IMG/VR virus record: IMGVR_UViG_3300038505_000007
Location: 1-64,000 of that record
From: a virus
DNA length: 64,000 nucleotides
Direction: 5' to 3' (one strand)
The notes under the pieces: model-generated
Databases searched by the model: none
What the model was told of the DNA's origin: nothing
The model's input: the letters and a program-made list of their open reading frames with translations, nothing else
Part shown: positions 27,620 through 49,194 of the stretch, piece after piece
Layout of the letters: the number at the start of each line of letters is the position of its first letter
Numbering within the stretch: the stretch's first letter is position 1
Made by a program: the position numbers and the translations under genes

Positions 27620-27850
27620 TCAGGTACTCTTTTTTTTTTCAGTATTAGGATTAATACGATGTTTTAGAGCGTTGCTTTGTATATCTGCTAGCATCTTTTT
27701 TCTAAGCTTTCCAGGTGCTCTTGGTAGTTTATTGATATGATCTCTAAGGCCAGAATCTGACCACTTTATAGCAGTCTTTTTGTCTTGTGGCTTCCAGTTC
27801 TTCTCTAGAGTCCACTGACCATTAGGTGCTATCTTGATCACGTAGTCCAT
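27620..27850 (-). CDS. Small Lys-rich protein, NGQW-motif, possibly truncated
   Basis: A 76-residue basic protein. Its start KIAPNGQWTLEKNWK echoes KFESNGQWKLEKAKD in the neighbouring 187-residue protein, so the two share a short motif. It ends in NPNTEKKKST, where a run of ten A bases is followed at once by a TGA that overlaps an ATG of the next frame (TGATG). The frame after the run contains a plausible continuation, so the full product may once have been about 190 residues. It is encoded between sheath and tube genes. Function unknown. Confidence 0.55.
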   Translation of the reverse strand: MDYVIKIAPNGQWTLEKNWKPQDKKTAIKWSDSGLRDHINKLPRAPGKLRKKMLADIQSNALKHRINPNTEKKKST

Positions 27851-38294: not shown

Positions 38295-38765
38295 ATGTTA
38301 AACCAAAAAGAAGCAGTATACGCAGCGATCTTGAGTGTTAAGGGCACCATCGATGGTCGAGTCACCTTGAGCGACGGCGAGCACCAGCGAGTCGTGTCGA
38401 TGCTGGTCGACGGGTTCAAGAGCGGCCAGATCAAGCTAGGACGGTCGTACACTGACGCGGAGTTGAGGAAGTACACAGTGGGGTTAGTGAACAACTGGTT
38501 GAGGAAGGATACTCGGCTGAACGGTGGTGAGAAGTATATGGCGAAGAATCCCGGGTCTCGAATGGGTGTGGGTGATGAGCAGCTGAAGGCTTTGAAAGCT
38601 CTGAGAGCGATCCTCTCTAATCCTCAAGAGATCGCTGAGATCGACAGCTACATCGAGAAGCGAATGCAGGAGCTCGCAGCAGAGCGAGCTAAGAAGTCGA
38701 TCAGCGAGATCAACTTTAACGTGCTGCCTGATGAGCTGAGAGCAAAGATCGCTAGCAAGTCGTAG
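38295..38765 (+). CDS. QKEA/NWLRKD phage family protein, copy 1
   Basis: A 156-residue protein with GGGAGG upstream. It starts MLNQKEAVYAAILSVKG and has YTDAELRKYTVGLVNNWLRK, then LNGGEKY and NPGSR, a helical middle (LKALKALRAILSNPQE) and a basic end. Two paralogs occur in this window (40805 and 48817); copy 2 matches over its full length. I recall the QKEA start and the NWLRKD..LNGG core as a conserved hypothetical family of large phages, without a known function. The core is helical with a basic surface and could bind DNA or a polymerase. Confidence 0.65.
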   Translation: MLNQKEAVYAAILSVKGTIDGRVTLSDGEHQRVVSMLVDGFKSGQIKLGRSYTDAELRKYTVGLVNNWLRKDTRLNGGEKYMAKNPGSRMGVGDEQLKALKALRAILSNPQEIAEIDSYIEKRMQELAAERAKKSISEINFNVLPDELRAKIASKS

Positions 38766-40804: not shown

Positions 40805-41272
40805 ATGTTAAACCAAAAAGAAGCAGTATACGCAGCGATCCTAAGCGTCAAGGGGAGCATCGACGGTCGAGTCACTCTCTCCAAAGAGGAGACAAATCAA
40901 GTGGTGTCGATGTTGGTCGACGGCTTTAAGTCAGGTAAGATATCCCTCAACAAGTCATACACGGATGCAGAGCTGCGTAAGTACACAGTGGGGTTAGTGA
41001 ACAACTGGTTGAGAAAGGATAATCGGTTGAACGGTGGCGAGAAGTATGTGGCGAAGAACCCAGGTTCAAGGACCGGAAGCGGCGATGAGCAGTTGAAGGC
41101 TCTCAAGGCTCTAAGGTCGATGCTCACAGACCCAGCGGAGATAGCAGAGGTAGACAGTTACATCGAGCGACGAACTCAAGAGATTGTAGCGGAGAGAGTC
41201 AAGAAGAGTATAGAGAAGATCAACCCACAAGCTCTGCCTGAGAGTCTGCACCACCTGCTATCTAATAAGTAG
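40805..41272 (+). CDS. QKEA/NWLRKD phage family protein, copy 2
   Basis: Start at ATG 40805 with GGGAGG upstream (155 residues). It is nearly identical to copy 1 over the first 17 residues and over YTDAELRKYTVGLVNNWLRK, and keeps DEQLKALKALRS and VDSYIERR. The C-terminal 25 residues differ. Third positions differ much more than residues, so the duplication is not fresh and both copies are under selection. Function unknown. Confidence 0.65.
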   Translation: MLNQKEAVYAAILSVKGSIDGRVTLSKEETNQVVSMLVDGFKSGKISLNKSYTDAELRKYTVGLVNNWLRKDNRLNGGEKYVAKNPGSRTGSGDEQLKALKALRSMLTDPAEIAEVDSYIERRTQEIVAERVKKSIEKINPQALPESLHHLLSNK

Positions 41273-41391: not shown

Positions 41392-42165
41392 ATGTCCGGA
41401 GTACCCCCAAGACACTTATACGTAGACTCGGCTATCGTCGCGGTCGACGGGTCAAGAACTGCCATTACTCCGAGACTCTCAGGTCCCAGTGAGAGCTCGG
41501 ACAGACTCTACGTGGACATGTCTTTATCTAGTGAAGGCGAGCTGCAGATCGTCACAGACAGGAAGCAAGAGAGTAAGATACCGCCCAACAAGTTGATGAT
41601 AGAGGGTTTAATGAGTCAGAGAGTCGTCGTGCGGAACGTGGGCGACGTGCTAGCTATGTCTGATGAAATCCCCACCCCGCTCGTGGTGAGCAGGGTCAAC
41701 ATTCCCAACCAGCACACCATATGCGCTCTAAGTAGAGTAAGTAGAAAAGAGCTCAACTCCGCTGTAGTGGACTTCTTGACCTCTAGCCACTTCTTGAACG
41801 CTCTAAGCAAGGAGCTGTCACGCCTGAGGATGATAATGTACGGGAGATACTGCGGATCGTCGAGCAGCACAGAGACGAACGTCGGGATCAGCTTCGAGAT
41901 ACACGACCTACTCCTGGAGGGAGGAAAGCTCATCAGCTCCTATGACAGGGAGCTATCAGTACTAACCATGAAGGTCGAGCTAGAGATTAGCGTGCAGGTC
42001 GAGTCTAACTACATCGACCGCTACGTCGTCTCTCCTGGGAGCTTCTTGTCCGCGTCTCTAGAGCTAGAGCTGCTGCAGAACATGAGGTACTCTCCGATAG
42101 ATACGCAGGAGATGTACAGGGACTACGTGGACTACTCGACCATGAGGACTATAAGACAAGCCTGA
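41392..42165 (+). CDS. 250-residue repeat-family protein, member A
   Basis: A 257-residue protein with AGGAGGAAAC before the ATG. The first half is beta-rich (LYVDMSLSSEGELQIVTDRK). The middle has a helical segment (FLTSSHFLNALSKELSRLRM) and the end has alternating strands (LTMKVELEISVQVESNYIDR, SLELELLQNM) and a short helix. The layout (beta region, helix with SS or similar, beta pair, C-terminal helix) recurs in five other genes in this window (42593, 43511/43825, 46134, 52129, 52908). Function unknown. Family membership is by eye and the weakest of the set. Confidence 0.5.
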   Translation: MSGVPPRHLYVDSAIVAVDGSRTAITPRLSGPSESSDRLYVDMSLSSEGELQIVTDRKQESKIPPNKLMIEGLMSQRVVVRNVGDVLAMSDEIPTPLVVSRVNIPNQHTICALSRVSRKELNSAVVDFLTSSHFLNALSKELSRLRMIMYGRYCGSSSSTETNVGISFEIHDLLLEGGKLISSYDRELSVLTMKVELEISVQVESNYIDRYVVSPGSFLSASLELELLQNMRYSPIDTQEMYRDYVDYSTMRTIRQA

Positions 42166-43327: not shown

Positions 43328-43510
43328 GAGTCAGCGTAGGCTAAACTCTCCCGTCTCCCCTGCTGCATCTACTTCTCCTAGCTAGCCTAGCTTCTCCACT
43401 CCTCTACTAAATACTCCACTTACATCTCTCCTGCTCCTACTGACAGGGACTATATATCTCATTTCGATACTAGAAATAAATACCCTTATTTAAAGGGTGG
43501 GGAGGCTAAT
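43328..43510. other. Polypyrimidine intergenic stretch
   Basis: About 180 bp with an unusually C/T-rich strand (43350-43440, many CTCCT and TCTAC words), then ATACCCTTATTTAAAGGGT hairpin near 43485-43500 just before the GGGGAGG site of the next gene. No gene seen. Confidence 0.45.
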
Positions 43511-43771
43511 ATGCCAAACAACAACAAAAGCAACTTTAAAATTGCTTTTAAACTAAAAGAGAGCGTCATTGCGCCTCTAGTGAGAGAGGGCGTCAGTAAC
43601 GACTCTGAACTTAAGCACTTTCACACTTTTAGATTCTTTAAAATCAACTCTAGACTAGTGCTCAGTTCTGTCTGTGAGGACAGTGATGCGCTTAAGATAG
43701 GTGAAATATACGACCACGTTCAAAGGTTCGCTGACGCCGGCTCTGGACTCGTGAACTTAGAGATAAATTAG
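43511..43771 (+). CDS. 250-residue repeat-family protein, member C, N-terminal part
   Basis: An 86-residue ORF with GGGGAGG before the ATG. It is basic and beta-rich (NFKIAFKLKESVIAPLVREG) and ends at TAG inside the second copy of an 11-bp tandem duplication (43757-43778). If one copy is removed, the frame continues through VNLEIKYKAP into the next ORF and gives one protein of about 299 residues. It is therefore best read as the front part of a split gene, unless the two parts are made separately. Confidence 0.6.
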   Translation: MPNNNKSNFKIAFKLKESVIAPLVREGVSNDSELKHFHTFRFFKINSRLVLSSVCEDSDALKIGEIYDHVQRFADAGSGLVNLEIN

Positions 43772-43778
43772 AGATAAA
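43757..43778 (+). repeat. 11-bp tandem duplication splitting a gene
   Basis: TTAGAGATAAA occurs twice without gap. The second copy introduces TAG at 43769 in the upstream frame. Loss of one copy would fuse the upstream frame to the downstream frame exactly. Confidence 0.85.
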
Positions 43779-43824
43779 GTATAAGGCGCCGACTGCTAAG
43801 AAGTCTAGTAAGTTAGAGAAAAAA

Positions 43825-44418
43825 GTGAGACTCACCTTTCGGTTCTACTCAGAGATAAAAGACAGCTTGTGCGATAGGTTGTTTGGTATGAACTCAGTCG
43901 ACGTGTCCGCAGAAGTGCTTAAGTCCCTCTTCTCTAAAGAGTTTGAGGACATCTTAGTTAAGACGCTCGCAGGTCTCTCTAGAAAGACCTTAAGAAAGAT
44001 CAACTTCATTCAACATAAGTTAGAGTATAAACATAATAAGTACAACTCCTACGATACCTACGGCACTACCATCCCCAGCAAGTCAAAGGTCTTAGTTACA
44101 GATTACTCCTACAATACCTACGGCACTACCATCTACTACAACCGCAAGTTCGGTGGTCTTGACTTAGAGAACGGTCGACTCGTTGCTAAGCCTCCCCCTT
44201 CTGAGAACCCTATGTTAGAGTTAAACGTGTACGCTACCACGCACGTGGGGTACAGCGTTGAAAATGCTACGCAGCCGGTAATCGGCGTAGCCGACCAAAT
44301 CAACCTACACGTAGTCCTACGTGTCCGCAAGAACGCTCAGGAGCGGGTAGACACTACCGCTCTTGTGTCTAAGTACAACAACACGACTCTCATAGAGACC
44401 ATAGAGAAAGTAGAGTAA
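43825..44418 (+). CDS. 250-residue repeat-family protein, member C, C-terminal part
   Basis: From GTG 43825 this ORF has 197 residues; the frame is open from about 43733 but holds no ATG, and GTG has no ribosome-binding site, so it lacks a proper start. The helical segment FEDILVKTLAGLSRKTLRKI aligns with MEDVVAKAFEKINQTLHRVV in member D, and the C-terminal VSKYNNTTLIETIEKVE with LKQHNDNVVLNELISYIG. Two 27-bp near-identical segments 60 bp apart (44047-44073 and 44107-44133) encode TYGTTI twice, another local duplication. It is likely the rear part of the gene that starts at 43511. Confidence 0.6.
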   Translation: MRLTFRFYSEIKDSLCDRLFGMNSVDVSAEVLKSLFSKEFEDILVKTLAGLSRKTLRKINFIQHKLEYKHNKYNSYDTYGTTIPSKSKVLVTDYSYNTYGTTIYYNRKFGGLDLENGRLVAKPPPSENPMLELNVYATTHVGYSVENATQPVIGVADQINLHVVLRVRKNAQERVDTTALVSKYNNTTLIETIEKVE

Positions 44419-45376
44419 AATAAGTATAGAGGTGAGTACCATGCAGGCATGGGTTCGTGGGTATACATAGGAACAGGGGGAAGACACGTGTGCTGGGGAT
44501 AGGAGAGCAGAGCAGACACATAGGCTTCGGTGAACTGTGGTGCGGAAGTTCGCGTAGGATGATGTTGGTCGATATGGGTGCGTGTGGGGCGTGTGGGCGC
44601 GTGGCCCCCACCCTCCCCACCTGCCCACAACGAACACGTAGATACAACCACATAGACAAACCTACCCTCACAAAGAGCACCTATGTCCACATAGGCCAAC
44701 ACATACCCAATATGCCCACCTATACCCACATAAGCAGACATAGGCCTATACAGACACATATGCCCACATAGACCCGCATAGGAACACAGAAATGCCTGTT
44801 CCTACCTGTGTCTGCCTATACCTACACAGGAACACAAGCATACCTATTCCTGTACTGCCTATTCCTGTACTGCCTATTCCTGTACTGCCTATTCCTGTAC
44901 TGCCTATTCCTGTACTGCCTATTCCTGTACTGCCTATTCCTACCTAGGTCTACTTAGGTCTACCCCATACCCATAAGGGTATACCTATACCTATCTAACT
45001 ACCTATGTCTACTTATCCCTATGTAGAGGATACAGATATTCCTGTGTCTACCTCTACCTAGGTTTAGGTCTATACCTACTTATATTTAAGTTTAAGTTTA
45101 GGTTTAAGTATATGTCTACCTATACCCGCACAAGAACATACATACAGACGCATAGATAGACATACTCATGTCCCCGGGTTATACCTACCTACCTATTAGT
45201 GTATACATCTATCTTCTGCCTATTCCTCCTATTGTTATTCTTGTTGTTATTTGTTTCGTTTCGTTTTGTTTTGTTTTGTTTTGTTTATTCCTACCTACCC
45301 CATACACATGGGAGGGTTTACTTATCCTGATTATAATTATTTTTAATAACAAATAACAAAAGGAGGGGAGGTTTTT
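44419..45376. repeat. Gene-free repeat-rich region
   Basis: About 950 bp with no credible gene. It contains scattered CACATAGG, CCTATACC and CCTACCTA words through most of its length, seven copies of a 15-bp tandem unit (CCTATTCCTGTACTG, 44843-44940), a run of TTTAAG-type hexamers (about 45085-45108), and TTTTG repeats (about 45262-45286). It ends in an AT-rich patch with CCTGATTATAATTA (45327) and AAAGGAGGGG, the ribosome-binding site of the next gene. Possible roles are an origin, a recombination hot spot, or a spacer; none is shown. Confidence 0.6.
44843..44940 (+). repeat. 15-bp direct repeat array, seven units
   Basis: CCTATTCCTGTACTG repeats with an exact 15-bp period at 44843, 44858, 44873, 44888, 44903, 44918 and 44933 (last unit partial). 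There are no spacers, so it is a tandem array and not CRISPR. Confidence 0.9.
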
Positions 45377-45746
45377 GTGATATGGGCTTATGTTCGAGTG
45401 AGGGACAATGATGATATGCGCGCTTTGACGGATTATAGATATGACTTTGAGGTAATAGGGGAGTGCTGGATAAAATTGAACGCTTGGGTTAAGTTTGACG
45501 CGCTGTGTGCCTATGCTACGAAAGGCAGCCGTTTTGCAAACGATCGAGAGACGACCAATTTTTTTAAAGCTATTGTTGTTATACTATGAGCCAATATCAC
45601 AAAATGAAATTTTTATCGATAACGCTGATTTGTACGGCCGCTTCGGGTTTTATGAAATTCTAGATGAAGAAAAAGCAGAAAAAGACGATCAAATGATTTT
45701 TAGTGCGCAGATAGGTAACGCTGAATATGCGCTAATCAAATTCTAA
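45377..45746 (+). pseudogene. Frameshifted gene, function unknown
   Basis: A GTG start at 45377 follows a strong AAAGGAGGGGAGG site and opens a 70-residue ORF (MIWAYVRVRDNDDMRALTDY) that ends in TGA at 45589. The next frame (+1) carries a good continuation, YYEPISQNEIFIDNADLYGR and on to EYALIKF at 45746. One base removed near 45575-45590 would join them as about 122 residues. Base use differs from the neighbours. It may be a decaying gene or an indel in the sequence. No family recognised. Confidence 0.5.
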
Positions 45747-45786: not shown

Positions 45787-46075
45787 ATGAGCGACAAGCA
45801 CAGCAACGACGGTGGCCCGGCGTTCTCGGTCTGGGAATTGAACGGCAAAGACCAGCCGGAGATGACTGGATTCGGAATGACACTACGCGACTACTTCGCG
45901 GCCAGGGCGATGCAGGGGGCTACTCGCTAACCCGGGCGGCGCGATTCAGCAGAACGGCATGAGTGGGTGGGGCTTGTGCAATTGCACCGTAGATGATGTG
46001 GCCGAATTTGCGTGGCGTATCGCCGACGCTATGCTCAAGGCGCGTGGTGGTTTCCACATCGACGCGACGAACTGA
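45787..46075 (+). pseudogene. Frameshifted DGGPAF/GMTLRDYFAA family protein
   Basis: ATG 45787 with GGGAGG upstream gives MSDKHSNDGGPAFSVWELNG, then GMTLRDYFAARAMQGATR and a TAA at 45930. The family of small phage and prophage proteins with DGGPAF and GMTLRDYFAA normally continues with QGLLAN and a helix ending in IADAML. Exactly that is present in the +1 frame (LLANPGGAIQQNGMSGWGL, then VAEFAWRIADAMLKARGG, stop at 46075). Deleting one base of the G5 tract at 45914-45918 would restore it. The region is much GC-richer than its surroundings and probably came from another genome. A sequencing indel is an alternative. Confidence 0.7.
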
Positions 46076-46133
46076 AAAAGGAGAACTAATATTACTTCAT
46101 AGATTAAAACGGTAACAACAAAAGGAGAGCGCT

Positions 46134-46961
46134 ATGTCTTCAAAGTCTTCAAAGTCGTTAAAGCTTGTGCTCACAAAGATTCCCTCTATCAAGAAGCAGA
46201 GTGGGGAGCCGCTTTTGGGGATAAGGTCAGACGTGTCAGGTTTAGGTAATGACTTCGTGTGCGTATCTAGGCCAGCGCTGGTGAAAAAACCTAGCAATGA
46301 GTTCACCTCCAGGTACAATGAGTTCACTTCCAGGTACCTAGGAAACACCCTACTTAACATCCTAGACTTTGAGTACAAGATCGTCACTACTAAGGAGTTG
46401 AACGGAAAAACAGAGGTGATTGAGGAGTTGATGCGTGGCTGTAATATATACATTACATACATTAGGTGGCGCAAGTACACCATGATGTCCAGTAGCGTAG
46501 ACTTAGCCATCTACTTATTTGGCTTGAGTAAGGAGAAGTTCTTGTTGGACTTTTTTGCACTCATGAGCTCTCCTGTCATGGAGGACGTGGTCGCTAAGGC
46601 TTTTGAGAAAATAAACCAGACCCTACACAGGGTGGTGAAATCCAAGACTCTCTTTAGATTTCAAGAAACCCACGCCCCTGTGATTACCCATCTCTACCTC
46701 TCTAGGGACGGTATCTCTGTAAAAGAGCCAGAGGGTGATTACGTGGATCTCACCTTACATATAAGCCTTATGCCAGAGATAGGAGCAAGTGGTTCCACTA
46801 TAATGATAGGCCCTTATATGACGATGAGCGTAGATTTCACTGTCTCCCTTAAGGACTCATTGGTCGAGCAGTACTCGGCAGATAACATAAACATCGACCA
46901 GCTGCTGAAGCAGCACAACGACAACGTGGTCTTAAACGAGTTAATATCCTACATAGGGTAG
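46134..46961 (+). CDS. 250-residue repeat-family protein, member D
   Basis: A 275-residue protein with AAAGGAGAGCGCT before the ATG. The basic start is followed by a 7-residue tandem repeat (NEFTSRYNEFTSRY) caused by a 21-bp duplication at 46296-46337. The helical segment MEDVVAKAFEKINQTLHRVV and the closing pattern (YMTMSVDFTVSLKDSLVEQY then LLKQHNDNVVLNELISYIG) match member C. GISVKEPEGDYVDLTLHISL parallels the hairpins of members B and E. Function unknown. Confidence 0.55.
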   Translation: MSSKSSKSLKLVLTKIPSIKKQSGEPLLGIRSDVSGLGNDFVCVSRPALVKKPSNEFTSRYNEFTSRYLGNTLLNILDFEYKIVTTKELNGKTEVIEELMRGCNIYITYIRWRKYTMMSSSVDLAIYLFGLSKEKFLLDFFALMSSPVMEDVVAKAFEKINQTLHRVVKSKTLFRFQETHAPVITHLYLSRDGISVKEPEGDYVDLTLHISLMPEIGASGSTIMIGPYMTMSVDFTVSLKDSLVEQYSADNINIDQLLKQHNDNVVLNELISYIG

Positions 46962-48816: not shown

Positions 48817-49194
48817 ATGAAGAGTCAAAAAGAAGCAGTATTTCTGACAGTCTCAGAGGTTCTAGGTCGCGTCCCCTTAAAGGGCGAGCGAGTAGTCCTC
48901 ACTAAGGAGCAGACAGAGCAGGTCAAATCTATCCTGCTTGAGGAGTTCAAGCAGGGCAGGGTGCAGCTAGGTTGCACTTACTCGGAGCAAGACTTGAAGA
49001 AGTACGTGGCTGGGCTGGTAGCTAACTGGTTAAGAAAAGACGTAAGACTGAACGGCGGAGTTGAGTTAAAGGCCTCTGCCTCTAAAGCTAAGCAGCAGGA
49101 GCAGCGGAGTGAGGCAGCCGAGAGTACCTCTTTAGAGGACATGTCTTTGAGCGAGCTCGTATCTGTTGCTAGACAAGCTGTGAGGACGGCTTGA
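48817..49194 (+). CDS. QKEA/NWLRKD phage family protein, copy 3
   Basis: Start at ATG 48817 with AAGGAGG 6 bp upstream and TATAAATA before it (125 residues). MKSQKEAVFLTVSEVLG and the core YSEQDLKKYVAGLVANWLRK then LNGG place it with copies 1 and 2, but the NPGSR..LKALKALR part is missing and replaced by a Ser/Gln/Lys-rich linker and a short helix. It is the most diverged copy. Function unknown. Confidence 0.6.
   Translation: MKSQKEAVFLTVSEVLGRVPLKGERVVLTKEQTEQVKSILLEEFKQGRVQLGCTYSEQDLKKYVAGLVANWLRKDVRLNGGVELKASASKAKQQEQRSEAAESTSLEDMSLSELVSVARQAVRTA

Follow-up and report, generated by a model that had tools for sequence, protein, structure and literature searches.

Two adjacent open reading frames (ORFs) in an uncultivated phage genome, separated by a short tandem duplication, raise the question of whether they are two genes or one gene that has been broken and, in the latter case, whether the break is a chance mutation or a reversible switch. 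The window analysed here comprises 64,000 nucleotides, the first 64 kb of the 126,068-bp virus record IMGVR_UViG_3300038505_000007. The genome is that of a contractile-tailed phage, with a tail sheath 38-71% identical to those of many IMG/VR phages, 100% identical to that of one sister record and ~30% identical to that of Myxococcus phage Mx1. The locus lies in accessory DNA flanked by the tail genes on one side and the ATPase/vWA genes on the other, and this location suggests that the encoded protein is dispensable and serves a host-specific function.

Both ORFs lie on the plus strand. The upstream one (43511..43771, 86 codons) ends at TAG 43769, and the downstream one, as called by the ORF finder, starts at a GTG and runs over 197 codons (43825..44418), in a frame that is open from 43735 and meets no stop until 44416. 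As the initial annotation had stated, an exact 11-bp tandem, TTAGAGATAAA present twice, occupies 43757..43778 on the plus strand, and its second copy shifts the frame and places in-frame stops at 43769 and 43775, with the upstream ORF reading TTA GAG ATA AAT TAG at the break. Exact tandems with a period of at least 10 arose in 0.17% of dinucleotide shuffles of the split gene, and those with a period of at least 11 in none of 60 shuffles of the 64-kb window. By itself the 11-bp repeat is nevertheless weak evidence, since a second exact 11-bp tandem in the phage genome (94605-94626) lies inside an intact 521-aa ORF (93216-94781, minus strand).

The telling point is where the repeat is placed. 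According to the per-frame stop lists, the two open frames (the downstream one being open over 227 aa) overlap only at 43735..43771 on the plus strand, a stretch that contains the frame break, and these 37 bp are the sole place in the 64 kb where a simple shift could join both frames. The duplication falls within this overlap and has the right phase for joining them, which is strong evidence that the two belong together. The same gene carries an older, in-frame duplication of 29 bp (44045..44133, plus strand), with copies that are 97% identical and 60 bp apart, and imperfect versions of the TTAGAGATAAA motif are present at 43811 and 43847.

The coding signal follows the frames across the break. 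With codon scores trained on long ORFs of the same phage, 43511-43771 obtained +0.38 bits per codon in frame, the other two frames giving -0.6 and -1.13, and the first frame was preferred ahead of the repeat and the second immediately behind it. Between the repeat and GTG 43825, which is the first ATG, GTG or TTG of the downstream frame after the overlap in which that frame opens, lie 16 codons, KYKAPTAKKSSKLEKK (43777..43824, plus strand), that are coding-like: their score of 9.1 bits was reached by 1% of intergenic stretches, by at most 0.4% of out-of-frame stretches and by 9.6% of in-frame stretches. A coding signal that goes on in another frame beyond an early stop is the pattern of a pseudogene made by frameshift. 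The start sites differ as well. The upstream ATG 43511 is preceded by a strong Shine-Dalgarno region, GGGGAGG (43496..43510, plus strand), whose duplex energy with the 16S tail is -11.4 kcal/mol, the median of the best starts in the genome being -6.6, while GTG 43825 and ATG 43888 reach only -2.9 and -3.1 kcal/mol, largely in line with the earlier claim that the downstream ORF has no start with a ribosome-binding site. The weak site at GTG 43825 is not decisive, since 10% of the genes of this phage are at -2.4 kcal/mol or weaker; taken together, however, the weak start and the coding signal upstream of it favour a single 298-codon gene.

Two genuine genes, one for an 86-residue protein and the other for a separate 197-residue protein translated from GTG 43825, would fit the in-frame coding signal of both ORFs and the weak Shine-Dalgarno sites found in some genes of this phage. 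We nevertheless consider this very unlikely: the open frame and the coding signal reach upstream of GTG 43825 as far as the repeat, the downstream ORF has no ATG at its first start and a poor ribosome-binding site, and it would be left unexplained why the duplication falls exactly on the frame overlap. Less probable by far is production of the full protein from the two-copy gene by ribosomes that change frame at, or jump across, the 11-nt repeat. Programmed translational bypassing is known from phage T4 gene 60, in which, as in the gene studied here, matching codons flank a short out-of-frame interruption; the identical codons flanking the repeat would permit re-pairing, and the stop comes two codons after ATA. 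Unlike gene 60, however, the split gene has no stable RNA structure and no sign of stimulating elements. No slippery heptamer was seen by eye in the sequence of 43735-43771, and the surrounding RNA forms a less stable fold than its shuffled versions (z +1.1); on these grounds a programmed frameshift or bypass was rejected. The best reading is thus a single 298-codon gene (plus stop) split by a slippage duplication; that one gene was split by the tandem is well supported.

The initial annotation had given this fusion about 299 residues and described it as having the size of its paralogs. Its length stands, at 298 aa plus the stop, but the paralogs do not, since the neighbouring ORFs (at 41392, 42593, 46134, 52117 and 52908) measure 244-275 aa and their homology is not established. 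The best phmmer pairs among these neighbours were marginal (E 0.02-0.12), none of them involving the split gene, and hhalign gave probabilities of at most 1.4%. A profile built from the five neighbours placed the downstream half at the top of the phage ORFs (7.6 bits), yet leave-one-out failed for four of its five members. Common ancestry of the split gene and these ORFs is possible from such sequence comparisons, and we left it out of the evidence for the fusion. In the next intact ORF, 46295-46337 holds an in-frame 21-bp tandem duplication (NEFTSRY twice). Three related small proteins of the MLNQKEAVYAAIL type are encoded at 38295-38765, 40805-41272 and 48817-49194, and up to four copies of this type occur around the same region in related phages.

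Searches for relatives of either half or of the read-through protein found none in IMG/VR, GTDB genomes, INPHARED phages, plasmids, Pfam or PHROGs, and full-length searches of 55 related phage records gave no relative of either half. The neighbouring ORFs, used as queries, found no relatives either. The syntenic regions of related phages that share the ATPase and vWA/metallopeptidase genes (ATPases 41-53% identical) hold no counterpart of the split gene, and a DNA pattern scan, which may omit near-identical records, found no second copy of the locus. An intact allele turned up in none of the relatives, and the ancestral form with one frame is therefore inferred from a single sequence, the present one. 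AlphaFold, run without an alignment on the C-terminal part and on one neighbour, gave no confident fold (mean pLDDT 33 and 38). The only sister record found (sample 3300006068) is 99.96% identical over ~36 kb and ends near 35.6 kb, short of the repeat site; a T-run at 27630-27641 is 2 bases longer in the window than in that record. Elsewhere, a related phage has an RNA-ligase-like ORF (L010:10528-12534) that seemingly carries an intein-like insertion, and at 67682-68155 of the present genome (L002:3682-4155) lies the downstream member of two closely spaced reading frames, whose start has no usable ribosome-binding site, possibly a further frame break.

Downstream of the split gene, other genes are broken too. 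The gene at 45787-46078 is split at a G5 run (45915-45919), the ORF that begins at 45787 stopping at 45928 and the next frame running to 46075. Its halves align to successive segments of PHROG 2201 (138-179 and 191-215), with E-values of 2e-9 and 2.6e-5 apart and 9.7e-21 when read through, and this gene is in one piece in phages of Providencia, Proteus, Pseudomonas and others; it is the only one of the broken genes for which an intact homolog was seen to span the break. With a GC content of 60%, compared with 42% for the genome, it looks imported. The ORF at 45377-45589 (stop 45587) is overlapped by a frame that extends through a T7 run (~45560-45566) as far as 45746; no homolog was found to confirm a break in 45377-45746, which is probably another broken gene. 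Between the split gene and the next intact gene, 0.6 kb without clear genes (44678-45286) contain minisatellites, among them 6.6 perfect copies of a 15-bp unit, CCTATTCCTGTACTG, at 44843-44941, and the 171-bp array at the start of the contig aside, repeats are most densely packed at 44-48 kb. The region around the split gene looks like decaying accessory DNA.

The explanation that we regard as probable is that an accessory gene was broken by an ordinary chance slippage duplication under weak selection, a state that is revertible without being an evolved switch. The ancestral phage would have carried one 298-codon accessory gene starting at 43511. Duplications of this kind are usually caused by slippage between short near-repeats, and replication slippage would here have doubled 11 bp and shifted the frame, cutting the translated product to 86 residues. 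The sequenced genome would then most likely carry the gene in an off state, yielding only a truncated N-terminal fragment. Loss of one copy by the same slippage could restore the frame, which is mechanically possible, and selection would be weak in this region, in which adjacent genes are broken as well. Speaking against this explanation, codon usage is still normal in both halves of the split gene, so that any decay would have to be very recent unless the gene remains in use.

This last point touches on the proposal that the gene is a contingency locus turned on and off as the 11-bp unit is lost and gained, which would give mixed populations of on and off phages in nature. The unit is an exact tandem whose length is not divisible by three and lies inside a coding region, as in phase-variable genes, and the flanking codons seem intact, as expected of a gene that is sometimes used. 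Reversible, gene-switching sequence duplications are known from pneumococcal capsule loci, where, as cited in PMC4243769, spontaneous tandem sequence duplications were described in the serotype 3 locus, cap8E and tts (Waite et al. 2001, 2003). As far as that account goes, those genes resemble the present one in that the tandem duplication is within the coding region and slippage that removes it can bring back the reading frame; they differ in that reversion was observed there and tied to a phenotype, whereas here there is one phage sequence and no revertant. In the literature we found no earlier case of a phage gene switched by one short tandem duplication. Slipped-strand contingency loci, built from short repeats or homopolymer tracts, share with the phage gene a unit that is not divisible by three and lies inside the coding region, but they usually have many copies, whereas the phage gene has only two and its neighbours are broken by other means. 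The nearby breaks having come about by different routes, an equal tandem sitting within the intact ORF at 94605, and no receptor or surface role being indicated for the protein, we find such a switch highly doubtful. Several breaks of different kinds in one stretch argue for relaxed selection (or poor sequence) over one dedicated switch, and of the two options offered by the initial annotation, on/off switching or a recent mutation, the mutation is therefore the better, the switch having no positive evidence, with two copies only, no second allele seen, and one confirmed and one probable further break in the following 2.3 kb, a pattern pointing to decay.

Poor sequence, in turn, would mean that the duplication and the homopolymer miscalls are artefacts of the assembly or of a minority variant, missing from most phage genomes in the sample. 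The locus is known from a single metagenome contig, three apparent breaks fall within 2.6 kb, two of the three at base runs, the contig starts inside a 171-bp tandem array as if the assembly had broken at a repeat, and one T-run differs in length between the sister record and the window. Against this, the ~36 kb shared with the sister record show, apart from that T-run, only 11 mismatches (4 of them at the edge of the repeat array), long structural genes show no breaks (2365 aa), and an 11-bp tandem is not typical of short-read error; we therefore regard an artefact as unlikely.

If the duplication is an ordinary one, as the chance-slippage explanation holds, the locus clearly illustrates how slippage can set an accessory gene of an uncultivated phage on the way to decay, and it carries a warning for annotation, since both ORFs should then be recorded as one disrupted gene. 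If reads were to reveal one-copy and two-copy genomes side by side, the locus would be a phage example of phase variation driven by a tandem of two copies.
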